This document shows, piece after piece, positions 32,459 through 38,446 of a stretch of 39,409 nucleotides of DNA. Made by a program: the position numbers and the translations under genes. The stretch spans positions 1 to 39,409 of the forward strand of contig CANQVB010000005.1 in NCBI GenBank assembly GCA_947627225.1, read 5' to 3'. Source of the DNA: an uncultured Bacilli bacterium (GTDB lineage: Bacteria; Bacillota_I; Bacilli_A; RF39; UBA660). Below the pieces are notes generated by a model. It worked only from the letters and a program-made list of their open reading frames with translations, had not been told where the DNA came from and searched no databases. The first letter of the stretch is position 1; each line of letters starts with the position of its first letter.

Positions 32459-32495
32459 ATAGTGGTATGATAGTGCTAGTAGTATAGAGGTGCTT

Positions 32496-33092
32496 ATGAA
32501 ACAAAAGCTAAGAAGATATAAACATTATTTTAGTGCCATTGCTTGTCTTTTCCTGTTTGCTGTTATCATTTTATGTGGACAAGGAAAAGAATCCATTAAC
32601 ACATCCAATGTAAACACAGTAAAGTCAATTGCGGCCGTGCATATTGTAGAAAAATATAATGCATTGAAGGAGTCAGCTGGTACAAAAGAAGTGCCTCTTT
32701 ATGACACATTTGAAGAAGCCATTACAAATGCGAAGGAAGGACCTGTTGCATTTGTTGGAAAATTAACTGCATATGGGCCAGACTGCGTCGGTTGTGGAGG
32801 AGGTAGTGCATGTCCTCCAAGACAAGATTTTCGAAATGGTAATATTTATTTCGAAGATCAAACCTATGGAACCGTTAGAGTATTAGCTGCAGATAAACGA
32901 ATTCCATGTGGTAGTATCATTCGTGTTTCCAACATCCGCATTTATAAAGAATCCATTCTTGCAATTGTGATGGATCGTGGCGGAGCTATTCAAAATAATC
33001 ATTTGGATTTGTTATTCACAACAGAAAGCAATCTAGAGGGATTTTCTACACAAAATGATATAAAATTTGAAATTTTAAGATATGGATGGTAG
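32496..33092 (+). CDS. Secreted/anchored 3D-domain protein (YabE-C-terminal-like, no G5/DUF348 region seen)
   Basis: N-terminal TM; LTAYGPDCVGCGGGSACPPR...VRVLAADKRIPCGSIIRVSN...ILAIVMDRGGAI (3D-type Asp motif); after tatD, as yabE is. Confidence 0.8.
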   Translation: MKQKLRRYKHYFSAIACLFLFAVIILCGQGKESINTSNVNTVKSIAAVHIVEKYNALKESAGTKEVPLYDTFEEAITNAKEGPVAFVGKLTAYGPDCVGCGGGSACPPRQDFRNGNIYFEDQTYGTVRVLAADKRIPCGSIIRVSNIRIYKESILAIVMDRGGAIQNNHLDLLFTTESNLEGFSTQNDIKFEILRYGW

Positions 33093-33109: not shown

Positions 33110-33712
33110 ATGGAAAAAGGGAAAATTATTCTTTCAATTTTAGGTATTGCATTTTTGGTTGCCATTGTTTTTGGTAGTACATATGCGATTTTTACCTTTT
33201 CAAAAGCTGGAACGAAAGAAAATAAAATCACAACAGGAACTGTGAGTATGACTTATACAGAAGGCACTGCTGGAATTACATTAACTGATATGGTACCAAT
33301 GGACGATGACACAGGGAAAGCCCGTAGAGGAGCAAACACAAATTTTGAATTTACAGTTTCTGCCACAATCACAGGAACAACCACGATTAATTATGACATT
33401 TATGCAGAAAAAACGACAGGATCTACGCTCGATGAAAAATTTGTAAAAGTATATTTAACGGATGGAGCATATGAATATGGAACAGAAAAAGCAATGTCTG
33501 GCTATACTTCTACGATTCCTGTTTATAGTGAACTTTCTACAATGCCTGGAAATACATCACAAAGGAAGCTTTATTCAGGAACTCTTACAAATAGCAACAC
33601 TTCTCAGCATTTTCGCCTTCGTCTTTGGTTGCTTTCCACTTATACAGATAACACTACTGCTAAGACATTTGGTATCAAAGTAGGTGTTAAAGCTACACAA
33701 AAAGCAAGTTAA
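33110..33712 (+). CDS. SipW-dependent-type (TasA/camelysin-like) secreted protein, paralog 1
   Basis: ILGIAFLVAIVFGSTYAIFTFSKAG...ITTGTVSMTYTE...FEFTVSATITGTTTINYDI...RLRLWLLSTY. Confidence 0.75.
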   Translation: MEKGKIILSILGIAFLVAIVFGSTYAIFTFSKAGTKENKITTGTVSMTYTEGTAGITLTDMVPMDDDTGKARRGANTNFEFTVSATITGTTTINYDIYAEKTTGSTLDEKFVKVYLTDGAYEYGTEKAMSGYTSTIPVYSELSTMPGNTSQRKLYSGTLTNSNTSQHFRLRLWLLSTYTDNTTAKTFGIKVGVKATQKAS

Positions 33713-33786
33713 AACTAGCTAGAGAGATTAGAAAAATACCAAAGAGAAACTAGGTATTGAATACAGTATAAAAGGAGAGTGAAGTC

Positions 33787-34407
33787 ATGAATTTAAAGCA
33801 AACATCTTCATCACAAACGACATTTATATCTATATTAGGAATAGCCGTTTTATTAGTGGCAGTCATTGGCACATCTTTTGCAGTCTTTACTTATACAGGT
33901 ACAGGTACAAAAACCAATACGATTACAACAGGAACGATTACGATGAGTTATATAGAACCAACCAATGGAATTTCTATTACCGACATGATGCCTACTACTG
34001 ATGATACAGGGAAAAAACTTGCTTCTGGTACGAATGTATTTGATTTTACAGTCTCTGCGACAATTACAGGAACAGTTACAGTGAATTATGCTGTAGGAGC
34101 AAAGAAGACAACGGATTCTACTTTAGATAATAATTCTGTAAAATTATATTTAGAAGAATTAGCAACTTCTGGCGGAGCTTTTCAATCAGTTGTCAAAGGG
34201 CCTGTTGTATATTCTGAATCTACTACAGAAGATGCAACAACAGGTGCTCCATCAGGAATAATGACCTTAGCAACGGGTTCTTTTACTAGTTCTAGTAGTA
34301 AATATTATCGCTTAAGAATGTGGGTCGCAGATACTTATCAACCAACGAGTACATCACAAAAGTTTTCGGTAAAAGTGAATGTTTACGGAAAGGCTGCATC
34401 TAAGTAA
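33787..34407 (+). CDS. SipW-dependent-type (TasA/camelysin-like) secreted protein, paralog 2
   Basis: ILGIAVLLVAVIGTSFAVFTYTG...ITTGTITMSYIEP...FDFTVSATITGTVTVNYAV...YRLRMWVADTY...VKVNVYGKAASK. Confidence 0.75.
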   Translation: MNLKQTSSSQTTFISILGIAVLLVAVIGTSFAVFTYTGTGTKTNTITTGTITMSYIEPTNGISITDMMPTTDDTGKKLASGTNVFDFTVSATITGTVTVNYAVGAKKTTDSTLDNNSVKLYLEELATSGGAFQSVVKGPVVYSESTTEDATTGAPSGIMTLATGSFTSSSSKYYRLRMWVADTYQPTSTSQKFSVKVNVYGKAASK

Positions 34408-34506
34408 TTTGCAGCTTTCATTATTTTTACAAAAAATTTTTTGCATAAAACTTAACGTGAAGGAAAAAATATAGGTGTATAGTGGGCATTTTGTATAAAA
34501 AAAGGT

Positions 34507-34535
34507 TTGACTTCTCGAAATCTTACTGCTATATT
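34507..34535 (+). promoter_or_regulatory. Promoter of paralog 3: TTGACT-17 bp-TATATT with TGC extended -10
   Basis: -35 34507-34512, -10 34530-34535; TG at 34527-34528. Confidence 0.75.
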
Positions 34536-34557
34536 TATACTAGAAGGAGGATAAAAC

Positions 34558-35172
34558 ATGAATAACAATAATTCATCAAAACAAATTTTATTATCAGTAT
34601 TAGGAGTAGCAATCTTAGTTGTTGCAGTAGTAGGAGTATCATTCGCAGCTTTTAGTTATTCTCAAGAAGGAAAAGCAGTAAATGAAATTACTACCGGTTC
34701 AATTACTATGACTTATAGTAATCCGCAAAATGGTATTAACATTAGTAATGCTATGCCAATGACAGACGAACAAGGGAAGGCTTTGAAAGATACAAATCAA
34801 TATTTTGATTTTTCTGTAAGCACCAATATCGTAGGTACTGCAACGATTAATTATGCCATTACTGCTACTAAGGAGCAGGAGTCTACTTTGGCGGATAATG
34901 CAGTTAAAGTATACTTGACTTCTGGTGCTATTACAACAGAAGAAGCAACTGAAGAAAAAGAACCTACATTGATATCAGCTTTATCTACAACTAGTGGCAG
35001 TGAATTAAGTGGAGCTCCTGAAGGTCAGTATATTCTAAAGTCTGGAACTGTATCTGCTGGTGAAAACACGACTCAATATCGTTTGAGAATGTGGGTTGCT
35101 GATAATTATGTGGTTACTGGTACAGCAAAAACTTTCAAGTTAAGAGTCAATGTTTATGGAAAAGCTGCTTAG
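34558..35172 (+). CDS. SipW-dependent-type (TasA/camelysin-like) secreted protein, paralog 3
   Basis: VLGVAILVVAVVGVSFAAFSYSQEG...ITTGSITMTYSNP...FDFSVSTNIVGTATINYAI...YRLRMWVADNY...LRVNVYGKAA; strong RBS aaggagg. Confidence 0.75.
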   Translation: MNNNNSSKQILLSVLGVAILVVAVVGVSFAAFSYSQEGKAVNEITTGSITMTYSNPQNGINISNAMPMTDEQGKALKDTNQYFDFSVSTNIVGTATINYAITATKEQESTLADNAVKVYLTSGAITTEEATEEKEPTLISALSTTSGSELSGAPEGQYILKSGTVSAGENTTQYRLRMWVADNYVVTGTAKTFKLRVNVYGKAA

Positions 35173-35192
35173 TTAGCTGAATCTAAACAATC

Positions 35193-35220
35193 GAAAAGCA
35201 CTATGGTGCTTTTCTTTTTT
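35193..35220 (+). terminator. Strong terminator gaaaagcac-tatg-gtgcttttc + T6 after paralog 3
   Basis: 9-bp perfect stem. Confidence 0.9.
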
Positions 35221-35254
35221 GTTGATGTACACGTTTTAATGTAAGAAAAAGAAC

Positions 35255-35283
35255 TTTTCATTCTTTTATTCATGTGTTATAAT
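35255..35283 (+). promoter_or_regulatory. Promoter of paralog 4: TTTTCA-17 bp-TATAAT with TGT extended -10
   Basis: -35 35255-35260, -10 35278-35283. Confidence 0.7.
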
Positions 35284-35307
35284 CTAGATAATAGTAGGAG
35301 GATTTAT

Positions 35308-35919
35308 ATGGAATATCAAGAGGAAAAAAAAGATGGAAAAAATTCACTATTGATTAGTGTTTTAGCGCTTCTAATTTTGTTAGTAGCTATTTTTGGTATT
35401 TCCTTCGCAACCATCACATTTACAGACAAAGGGAGTGAGTCTAATACACTCCATACTGGAGAACTTAGAATGTCTTATACGGAAAGCACCAATGGTATTA
35501 CCATAGAAGATGCGATGCCTATGTCAGATGATGTTGGTATGAAGTTAAATAGAGAGAATGAATATTTTGATTTTACAGTCGGAACAAAAATAAGCGGACA
35601 TGCAACCATTGCGTATGAGATTTCAGCAGAAAAAGATGTCAACTCTACATTAAATGAAAAAGATGTCAAATTATATTTAGAGAAAAAAGTAGGAACAAAT
35701 TATGAGACTGCTATGTCACCCACTGAATTTACACCTTTGAAGAAAGCAACACAATGGGGAACCCCTAAAGGTGATATGCTTTTAACAACAGGGGTTACCA
35801 GTAAAACAAATGAAGATTCCTATCGTTTAAGAATGTGGGTTCGTCAAGATGCAACCATATCAGAGGAAAAGAAAACCTTTATCGTTCGCGTGAATGTAAA
35901 AGGAGGAGTTGTTTCATAG
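35308..35919 (+). CDS. SipW-dependent-type (TasA/camelysin-like) secreted protein, paralog 4
   Basis: VLALLILLVAIFGISFATITFTDKGSESNTLHTGELRMSYTES...FDFTVGTKISGHATIAYEI...YRLRMWVRQDA...VRVNVKGG; ATG after taggagg. Confidence 0.75.
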   Translation: MEYQEEKKDGKNSLLISVLALLILLVAIFGISFATITFTDKGSESNTLHTGELRMSYTESTNGITIEDAMPMSDDVGMKLNRENEYFDFTVGTKISGHATIAYEISAEKDVNSTLNEKDVKLYLEKKVGTNYETAMSPTEFTPLKKATQWGTPKGDMLLTTGVTSKTNEDSYRLRMWVRQDATISEEKKTFIVRVNVKGGVVS

Positions 35920-35939
35920 TGCTTTTGTGCACTTTTTCT
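35918..35939 (+). terminator. Short terminator agtgc-ttttgt-gcact + T5 after paralog 4
   Basis: Direct reading; overlaps the stop codon. Confidence 0.6.
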
Positions 35940-36013
35940 GTTTTCTAACTCTTTTCTTTCTTTTGAAATTGTGATATTATAGCTATAGTATTAAGAATAA
36001 GATGGGTGATAAG

Positions 36014-36694
36014 ATGTCAGCGACACAAGAGAAACAAAAACCACAATCAATTTTTTCTTATATAAAAAGTGCATTACATTTTATAACAACTGTAATCATG
36101 TATACGGTTCTTTTAATGTTAATCTTTGTTGCTATCTTGTTTGTTCTTTACTTTTTGGATCAAAAGAAAAACATAGATAGCGGTAAAAATGTACCCCCTC
36201 TTTTTAATGCTTATGTCATTGTCAGCCCTAGTATGGTACCAACCATTAAAGTAGAAGATGCTGTCGTTGTTAAAAGAGTAGAAGAAAAAAATTTAAAAAA
36301 GGGAGATATTATTACATTTAATTCAACGGATTATCGCTATTCTGGGATTACAGTTACCCATAGAATTGTGGGGGTTGAAAAAACAAGTGATGGACAAACA
36401 CTTTACACGACAAAAGGAGACAATAATAACACGCCAGATAGTAGTAGAATAACATATGATAGTATTTATGGAAAAGTAATTATGAGAATTCCTAAGATTG
36501 GATATTTGCAGTACTTTTTAACACAATCTTATGGGTGGATTATTGCTGTTGTAATTCCTTGTTTAGGTATTATTATCTATGATATTATCAAATTAGTACG
36601 AACGATTAAAAGAAGCGTTGTTCCAAGAAGAAAAAAACCTTCTAAAAATGTAATACAAACGCCAAGAAAAGATAAGAGAGTGAGGTTCCGATAG
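36014..36694 (+). CDS. sipW: SipW-like (S26B/ER-type) signal peptidase I
   Basis: YVIVSPSMVPTIKVEDAVVVKRV...KKGDIITFNS...VTHRIVGVE...YTTKGDNNNTPDSSRI...YGKVIMRIPKIGYL; His in the position of the catalytic Lys. Confidence 0.9.
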   Translation: MSATQEKQKPQSIFSYIKSALHFITTVIMYTVLLMLIFVAILFVLYFLDQKKNIDSGKNVPPLFNAYVIVSPSMVPTIKVEDAVVVKRVEEKNLKKGDIITFNSTDYRYSGITVTHRIVGVEKTSDGQTLYTTKGDNNNTPDSSRITYDSIYGKVIMRIPKIGYLQYFLTQSYGWIIAVVIPCLGIIIYDIIKLVRTIKRSVVPRRKKPSKNVIQTPRKDKRVRFR

Positions 36695-36695
36695 T

Positions 36696-37226
36696 ATGAA
36701 AAAAAAATTACTACTGCTTTTAGGAGGCATTGTATTATTTGTATTTATTTTAGTAACTTCGTTTGCATGGAGTAAAATCTTTTATGATGGAGGGTCATCT
36801 TCCACTGGGGTTCCTACTTTATACTTAAAGTTAACAAATCAAAAAAATCAAGTGGATACAACACAGGATTATCCTTCAGAAACCCCCAATGATGAGATGG
36901 AACCGTATCGCTTTTCCATTAGTAACCAAAGCAAACAAGACGGAAAATATCAACTGCTTTTAGAAGAAGAGCCTGTTTCGAATCAAGTGGGTTACCGCCA
37001 AGAAGATTTATTAACAAGAAAGCAATTAAATTATCAGCTTACATTGAATCATGTTGTGATAAAAGAAGGACGGCTTTCCTCATTGAAAAACAATGTTTTA
37101 GATGAACGCATTTTGCAAGGAAATCAGGAAAATAATTATATTTTGCGAATTTGGGTGCATGATGAAGTGAAAGCAGGAGAATGGGAAAATAAGTATTATC
37201 ACTATAAAGTAACATTAAAGGCATAA
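36696..37226 (+). CDS. Secreted/anchored protein, divergent relative of the TasA-like paralogs
   Basis: N-terminal TM with TSFAWSKIFYDGG; C-terminus NNYILRIWVHDEVKAGEWENKYYHYKVTLKA parallels YYRLRMWVADTY...KFSVKVNVYGKA. Confidence 0.65.
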   Translation: MKKKLLLLLGGIVLFVFILVTSFAWSKIFYDGGSSSTGVPTLYLKLTNQKNQVDTTQDYPSETPNDEMEPYRFSISNQSKQDGKYQLLLEEEPVSNQVGYRQEDLLTRKQLNYQLTLNHVVIKEGRLSSLKNNVLDERILQGNQENNYILRIWVHDEVKAGEWENKYYHYKVTLKA

Positions 37227-37239
37227 GGAGCGTGAAAAA

Positions 37240-37935
37240 ATGAAAAAATTTTTAGTGGAATATATCAATTTAATTGGAAAGACTGTTTTAGGCCTTGTCT
37301 TTGGACTATCGTTCTTTCTTCTCTTTCTAAATTTTTATCATTATAAGGAAATACGTACCGTATATACACCAAGTCAAGAGAATGGAACGGATTATGAAAA
37401 ATTATTAAGGCAAGTAGATGTCATTAAGCAAAATGCGGCTGCTTATAGCCAAAATACATATCAAGGAAATGAGGATGTTTTTGATATGTTAGGGATGCAG
37501 TCTAAATTAAACGCTTGTGCACAGGCTTATGAAAATGAGACTTTAAAAAACTTATTAAGCAAAGAAAGTTATGTGGCTGAAGATGTTTATGAGTTAGTAA
37601 ACTATTATCAAAATTCAATTTTAAATGATTGTATCGTTTTACAATTTTATTCGTTTGGAGATAGTACAAGTACAACTTATAAAAGCGAGCGATTAAGAAG
37701 TATTTCTCCTTTCTTAAAAGTAGAGATGGATAACTTATTAAACAGCAGTACGGGCTACGTCAAAAACAATCTAAAAAATAATGATATTTATTACTTCAGT
37801 AACGAAGATTCTAAAAACACTGTGTTTGAACTTACAAAAGATAGTTATCAAGAGATGATGGGGCAGTATAAAAGTACTTTGAATTTTTTAGAGACATTTT
37901 CTAACTGGTATAAAAATGTAGCACAGGGAGGATAA
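37240..37935 (+). CDS. Unknown protein with one N-terminal TM and an extracytoplasmic domain (231 aa)
   Basis: ORF with RBS (aaggagcg); predicted N-in TM then soluble domain. Confidence 0.75.
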   Translation: MKKFLVEYINLIGKTVLGLVFGLSFFLLFLNFYHYKEIRTVYTPSQENGTDYEKLLRQVDVIKQNAAAYSQNTYQGNEDVFDMLGMQSKLNACAQAYENETLKNLLSKESYVAEDVYELVNYYQNSILNDCIVLQFYSFGDSTSTTYKSERLRSISPFLKVEMDNLLNSSTGYVKNNLKNNDIYYFSNEDSKNTVFELTKDSYQEMMGQYKSTLNFLETFSNWYKNVAQGG

Positions 37936-37937
37936 AT

Positions 37938-38390
37938 ATGAAAAAGATTCTTAATAAATTATTTTATGTTCTACAGCTTTTATTTTTAATTATAGCCTTT
38001 GCAGGAACATTATATGTGATTTTACAAATGGGCAATCGTCTTGAGAAAAGCATTGTAGATAATATTCAAGTTTTTATTCCGTTTGTAGTTATTTTCATTT
38101 TGCATGTTATTAATCTTATAGCAAATCAGAAAAATATTAAAGATAATCTATTTTATAATATTACTGCTTGTTTAGCTTTTTTAACCATTATTGTAGTAGC
38201 TGCAAGAGCAGTTTTTGATCATAATTTGGTGCTTGCCAATATAACAGATTACAAAATTGACTTTACTTACTTTGCTAATTTTATTCCATTTTTAAATCTG
38301 ATGCTTTATGGTTTGGCTATTTCCAATGTTTTATTAATGTTTCATGTCAAAGAAAAGAAAAAAATTAAAGAACAAATAGAGGAGCTTTAA
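37938..38390 (+). CDS. Unknown integral membrane protein, about 4 TM (150 aa)
   Basis: Starts 2 bp after the upstream stop codon; four hydrophobic segments. Confidence 0.75.
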   Translation: MKKILNKLFYVLQLLFLIIAFAGTLYVILQMGNRLEKSIVDNIQVFIPFVVIFILHVINLIANQKNIKDNLFYNITACLAFLTIIVVAARAVFDHNLVLANITDYKIDFTYFANFIPFLNLMLYGLAISNVLLMFHVKEKKKIKEQIEEL

Positions 38391-38446
38391 GAGCTCTTTT
38401 GTTTTGCTCATTTTAAATCTGTGATATAGTAAAGATGGTGGTAAGT

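Follow-up and report, generated by a model that had tools for sequence, protein, structure and literature searches.

Contig CANQVB010000005.1 of assembly GCA_947627225.1, from an uncultured Bacilli bacterium (RF39, UBA660), carries between tatD and rsmA a block of genes in the order P1-P2-P3-P4-sipW-tapL-mem7-mem8, all on the forward strand. The window analyzed here is this whole contig (C5; 39,409 bases), part of a 1.11-Mb metagenome-assembled genome (MAG) that is 92% complete. The block encodes four adjacent TasA-like subunits, a SipW-type signal peptidase, a further TasA-like paralog and two membrane proteins of no known family, and it is probably a sortase-independent export and assembly locus for surface fibers of the SipW/TasA (camelysin) kind. 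Its named relatives are MAGs of uncultured Bacilli/Tenericutes, some of them Candidatus Onthousia and several with rabbit ("Lapin") names; the hosts are apparently small-genome, uncultured animal-gut bacteria.

Four paralogous TasA-like genes

The open reading frames (ORFs) of P1 to P4 occupy positions 33110-33712, 33787-34407, 34558-35172 and 35272-35919 and encode proteins of 200-215 amino acids (aa), each with one N-terminal transmembrane segment. The first-pass annotation of this DNA had described four adjacent paralogs of about 200 aa with shared motifs, and the alignment agrees: identity to P1 is 38-44%, and these motifs are among the 42 invariant columns. A profile built from the four scores each of them above 300 bits, which excludes a chance likeness. 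In P1 the transmembrane segment spans residues 6-24 and the cleavage site reads STYA↓IF. The closest relative of P2 is a copy on contig C53 of the same genome (69% identity), while P3 belongs to a class that is expanding in other genomes and is modeled by AlphaFold as a beta-sandwich with a predicted local distance difference test (pLDDT) score of 86. P4 is the orthologous last-position gene before sipW. Its ORF opens at 35272. Since a strong Shine-Dalgarno sequence (AGGAGG, 35296-35301) stands ahead of the ATG at 35308 and the -10 box of P4 shares the stretch around the upstream ATG, shortly after the longer ORF opens (window 35272-35310), the annotated start is probably wrong and the true gene probably 35308-35919.

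Across the 90 sequences of the P family, the signal and the start of the mature protein are strongly conserved, with S28 in 85, A30 in 88 and F32 in 74 sequences (A/F at 31/32), and Pro67 is found in all 90.

An additional, Sec11-like signal peptidase

The sipW gene (36002-36694) encodes a Sec11/SipW-type (S26B) signal peptidase of the Ser-His-Asp type with transmembrane segments at residues 31-49 and 180-198. It scores 102.6 bits against TIGR02228 (cut-off 51.85), and its best matches in the Protein Data Bank (PDB) are Sec11C/A (SEC11C/A), whose Ser, His and Asp boxes pair with those of SipW in the alignment. Ser77 (SPSM), His120 (THR) and Asp140 (KGDxNN) are invariant in 14 orthologs, in line with the earlier assignment to endoplasmic reticulum-type signal peptidases with His as the catalytic base. 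The Bacillus SipW equivalog model NF046067 is matched at 86.7 bits, below its cut-off of 190, and by sequence the enzyme is SipW-like rather than the Bacillus equivalog itself. A role as the housekeeping signal peptidase was considered and rejected: the Lys-type enzyme is a separate gene (C24:15750-16205; 162 bits to TIGR02227), and sipW is therefore an additional enzyme. Against the same housekeeping model sipW reaches 31.6 bits (cut-off 47) and so does not group with the Lys-dyad enzymes; such a grouping is what the first-pass annotation had named as speaking against its proposal.

Many TIGR02228 matches in the family lie in open frames of 380-400 aa (for example L025, L028, L040 and L047), apparently a longer second type of S26B peptidase.

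A fifth paralog and two membrane proteins downstream of sipW

Directly after sipW lies tapL (36696-37226), to which scans of Pfam and NCBIfam give no family name. Aligned with hhalign over its full length, the tapL profile matches the P profile at 98.2% (E 6e-14), and the gene thus encodes a divergent TasA-like paralog with an N-terminal transmembrane segment. Two unknown membrane proteins had been noted after the peptidase; this description fits mem7 and mem8, while the gene next to sipW had gone unrecognized as a fifth paralog. The cleavage-site Ala is kept in the tapL of the window (SFA↓W) and in only 5 of 20 tapL orthologs, which suggests that in most genera the protein may stay in the membrane as an uncleaved anchor.

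The mem7 gene (37240-37935) encodes a single-pass protein of no known family with an ectodomain of about 200 aa, in which two invariant cysteines, C93 and C131, could form a disulfide. It is followed by mem8 (37938-38390), encoding a protein with four transmembrane segments, likewise of no known family.

Conservation of the locus and history of the paralogs

The placement between tatD and rsmA, noted at first from the window alone, recurs across related genomes, and the gene order SpoVT-metG-tatD-(3D protein)-[P array]-sipW-tapL-mem7-mem8-rsmA is kept in about 25 related MAGs. In the 24 loci where tatD and sipW share a contig, 2-7 P genes stand between them, the last of which is of the P4 type in most loci. 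The P genes are about 100 nucleotides (nt) apart; between sipW and mem8 the gaps are close to zero or negative, with a sipW-tapL junction of -4 nt in 17 of 26 cases.

Among 145 sampled genomes of the family, mem7 is recognizable in 17, almost all from different genera. Leaving aside the window and its congener, the other 15 have mem7 adjoining sipW and mem8, except for one case at a contig end, where it adjoins mem8 alone. A class-wide search gave mem7 matches in 13 of 395 genomes, 11 of them in this family; the other two were weak, and on rescoring one reached 21 bits and the other gave nothing. Some other genera have simplified loci, tatD-P-sipW-rsmA and tatD-PPP-sipW-rsmA. Other genera of this family also carry sipW outside the tatD-rsmA interval (L128-L147), often with TasA-like neighbors.

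A tree of 90 paralogs was built by a quick method, with support from the Shimodaira-Hasegawa-like approximate likelihood ratio test only. In it P1 falls among genes that in other genomes mostly hold the first position (support 99), and P4 in a 20-row set of mostly last-position genes (96). P2 joins the copy on contig C53 (99), and P3 is placed in a large array class (96). By this tree P1-P4 are old subfamilies, and their origin by recent tandem duplication was rejected. Recent array copies are present in other genomes (L057, L061 and L080).

Transcription signals

Terminator-like hairpins follow P3 (35193-35214) and P4 (35918-35933), and a third closes the cassette (38374-38404). Across the related loci such hairpins are found in 36 of 59 gaps between P genes and in 16 of 25 gaps between a P gene and P4, against about none in shuffled sequences (partly single-base shuffling), and in only 3 of 27 gaps between P4 and sipW. 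Given this distribution and the gene spacing, each subunit gene seems to be transcribed on its own or to be subject to attenuation, and the sipW-mem8 cassette seems to be co-transcribed. Promoter-like sequences, both consensus matches, lie on the forward strand just upstream of P3 (TTGACT-17-TATATT with TG, 34507-34535) and before P4 (TTTTCA-17-TATAAT, 35255-35283); the count of promoter matches is not above that in shuffles.

Kinship to TasA and camelysin and the predicted fold

Profile-profile comparison links the paralogs to the TasA/camelysin superfamily. The P profile matches the A10 set, of which two members exceed the PF12389 cut-off (L148 and L149, at 39 and 37.5 bits), at 99.4% (E 6e-22), and the tapL profile matches a set with PF12389-passing proteins at 99.3%. 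Against camelysin-type proteins, most of which belong to other families in the class, the P profile reaches 92% (E 5e-7) over its N-terminal half only. Negative controls, in which the P profile was aligned with those of mem7 and mem8, gave 0.2-0.3%.

AlphaFold, supplied with 90 rows, predicts a transmembrane helix and a beta-sandwich with pLDDT above 90 in most blocks; within the mature N-terminus, residues 34-36 and 41-46 fall under 50. The donor strand of TasA comprises residues 28-38 (PMC9674648), and its most conserved protomer interface is the "proline box" A28/F29/P62 (PMC10151520). The P family matches this box in its universal Pro67 and in the S-x-A↓[A]F start. Among the top 50 Foldseek matches in the PDB, amid unrelated beta-sandwiches, are CfaB, FimG, PapA, CS17, CS20, the type I pilus and the filaments 7ueg and 7pnb; the resemblance of the model to donor-strand pilins and to the TasA-like pilus 7ueg is suggestive. 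A direct sequence search of the PDB with the P, tapL, mem7 and lectin-fusion profiles (see below) returned nothing meaningful.

Relatives elsewhere in the genome, including putative lectin fusions

Further members of the family are encoded on other contigs of the same genome: a P2-like gene on C53, proteins of 195 aa on C27 and 336 aa on C18, and, where C6 ends, a P-like gene in truncated form. Two type IV-pilin-like genes with the prepilin motif GFT[ML][VI]EL stand just before the last of these (L099:3252-4418).

Seven larger proteins of about 520-540 aa, some of them cut by contig ends, join a SipW/TasA-like N-domain to a conserved C-domain of about 330 aa. They lie on C53 (L095:40-1653), C49 (L096:31-1641), C46 (L097:3-1481), C2 (L098:3-1016), C28 (L102:7794-8987), C14 (L103:6309-7526) and C33 (L187:1444-3006; with a different N-domain), and four contigs (C46, C2, C28 and C14) break inside these genes. 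In the Lapin-015 bin28 MAG (L074, L077, L078 and L084) the same C-domain is borne, in many copies, by a P-type N-domain, and the N-domain has thus been swapped between families.

The C-termini of the fusions appear DUF6273-like, that is, C-type-lectin-like: one member of the A8 set matches DUF6273 with E 0.009, and a protein on C21 that exceeds the DUF6273 cut-off also matches the lectin-fusion profile C-terminally at 30.6 bits. The AlphaFold model of a fusion, from 11 rows, has a pLDDT of 40. DUF6273 has been modeled in the C-type-lectin fold, and the variable regions of retroelements have been placed at its C-terminus (PMC10743442, PMC11792537). Six copies of this genome are most divergent in alignment columns 541-580, where aa identity falls to 0.32-0.35 and 373 non-synonymous codon differences stand against 67 synonymous ones; the adjoining conserved block (columns 481-500) has an identity of 0.94. 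Diversification driven by a retroelement was rejected, as no reverse transcriptase was found at E<=1 in the 92%-complete genome. Judging from their signal, the fusions would be processed by SipW.

Proposed mechanism and alternative explanations

We hypothesize that the subunits P1-P4 are exported by Sec and cut by the dedicated SipW at S-x-A↓A-F. By completing the beta-sandwich of the next subunit, the flexible N-terminus thus set free (AFxYSxxGxxxNTITTG) could act as a donor strand and give rise to a fiber. TapL, in which an N-terminal membrane segment carries a TasA-like domain and whose gene is tightly coupled to sipW, would act as base or nucleator in the role of TapA, with Mem7 and Mem8 as putative accessory membrane parts of the SipW/TapL export and assembly site. 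The P2/P3-type proteins would be bulk subunits, encoded in copy numbers that differ between lineages, and P1 and P4 specialized minor subunits. Surface fibers or an adhesive matrix are a plausible product of such a locus. A bolder version, which we regard as possible and put forward tentatively, is that of a heteropolymeric TasA-type fiber whose SipW-TapL-Mem7-Mem8 site also exports the TasA-like/C-type-lectin fusions encoded across the genome, so that a hypervariable display would be kept as paralogs and not through a diversity-generating retroelement.

Several results weigh against the fiber proposal. In direct family scans the best paralog score against PF12389 is 14.9 bits (P1; cut-off 22.5), and the cut-off of NF046066 is not reached either. 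TIGR04088, the SipW-cognate signal model that the first-pass annotation had suggested as a check, matches no paralog, its best score in the genome being 9.2 bits (E 3). The fold matches are weak as well: the best Foldseek match to the PDB has E 2e-3, none reaches E<=1e-3, TM scores are about 0.2-0.3, and TasA itself is not in the top 50. The name tapL was given for the position of the gene and does not imply proven homology to B. subtilis TapA. Finally, the 1.1-Mb genome holds six sortase genes (on C20, C10, C36, C2, C43 and C52), none of them on the locus contig, and other surface systems therefore exist; surface proteins that depend on sortases are probably present alongside the SipW system. 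The kinship to TasA and camelysin claimed at the outset thus stands in profile-profile comparison (99.4% and 92%) and not in direct scans, and since the latter remain below cut-off and TIGR04088 finds no match, the membership of the paralogs in this superfamily, as judged from sequence, is remote.

The alternative that survives best, though we think it unlikely, retains the export route and dispenses with polymerization: SipW would free soluble or surface TasA-like adhesins, decoys or antigens, of which the paralogs are functional variants. The copy number varying from 2 to 7, the terminator hairpin that many subunit genes have of their own and, in the same genome, the seven larger proteins that combine a TasA-like N-domain of the SipW type with a hypervariable C-terminus are all consistent with this idea. 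However, the paralogs are old subfamilies at conserved positions and not rapidly diversifying copies, the features expected for donor-strand exchange (free N-terminus, proline-box residues) are conserved, and the dedicated tapL/mem7/mem8 cassette suggests assembly.

It is less probable still that sipW is a general second signal peptidase with its neighbors merely as clients and no dedicated machine between tatD and rsmA. The same type of signal does occur in the seven lectin fusions, in the C27 and C18 proteins and in the C6 fragment, and in many of the family's genera sipW lies outside this interval; but tapL, mem7 and mem8 remain with sipW wherever mem7 is found, the genes from sipW to mem8 overlap or abut, and the recognized neighbors of sipW are often TasA-like. 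That the paralogs are camelysin-type metallopeptidases, secreted proteases rather than structural subunits, is very improbable: PF12389, to which P1 has its sub-threshold match, is named Peptidase_M73, but no paralog contains HExxH, the invariant residues of the P family (Pro, Gly, Leu and Trp, with signal and strand residues) are not a metal site, and TasA, a relative of camelysin, is structural (PMC9674648).

Comparison with known systems

The locus is an elaborated relative of known SipW/TasA systems and not a new kind of machine; SipW operons with more than one subunit have been described for B. cereus and C. perfringens. With tapA-sipW-tasA of B. subtilis (PMC10151520, PMC9674648) it shares a dedicated Sec11-like signal peptidase, subunits predicted here to be TasA-like beta-sandwiches, with an AxF mature start and a conserved proline, and a gene for a membrane-associated, putative accessory protein that adjoins and overlaps sipW. 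In contrast to B. subtilis, there are four subunit genes here (2-7 in related loci) instead of one, placed upstream of sipW; the putative accessory protein is a TasA-like paralog joined by two extra conserved membrane proteins; and the locus lies between tatD and rsmA.

The B. cereus locus sipW-calY1-bc_1280-calY2 (CalY/TasA/CapP) likewise combines SipW, two camelysins and an accessory assembly protein (PMC10151520), and it forms heteropolymer fibers without a sortase (PMC10151520, PMC13082335). It differs in having two subunits and sipW in first place, and the accessible parts of PMC10151520 describe no equivalents of mem7 and mem8. C. perfringens sipW-bsaABCRSD, compared by its description, encodes a SipW-dependent secreted protein of about 23 kDa that forms very stable sortase-free polymers, together with further secreted proteins (PMC7395162), whereas its gene order is different and it includes a two-component regulator. 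The archaeal pili of Pyrobaculum calidifontis (7ueg) and the Sulfolobus 0406 filament (7pnb) are donor-strand filaments of TasA-like or related beta-sandwiches, to which the fold matches are weak and no sequence match was found. Unlike sortase-assembled pili, P1-P4 and tapL have no LPXTG motif, and the sortases of the genome are all encoded on other contigs.

No prior description of such fibers in this bacterial group was found in the open-access literature searched. As far as that literature goes, what is new is the fixed position of the locus, the TasA-like paralog as a putative anchor, the pair of orphan membrane proteins, the specialized positions and the variable lectin-fusion link. The proposed role would add small-genome Bacilli of the animal gut to Bacillus and Clostridium as bearers of TasA/SipW fibers, and two conserved, unannotated membrane proteins that accompany SipW, mem7 and mem8, are now named. 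The first, bulk and last positions of the array offer a natural experiment on subunit specialization. If the lectin fusions do share the export route, fiber export would be tied to a large binding repertoire in commensals.

Genomic surroundings

Before rsmA one would expect rnmV; the window lacks this gene, and the locus therefore seems to occupy its place. On the other side, tatD is followed by a gene for a 3D-domain protein (window 32490-33092), which some relatives lack; in B. subtilis yabE comes after yabD in the same way.

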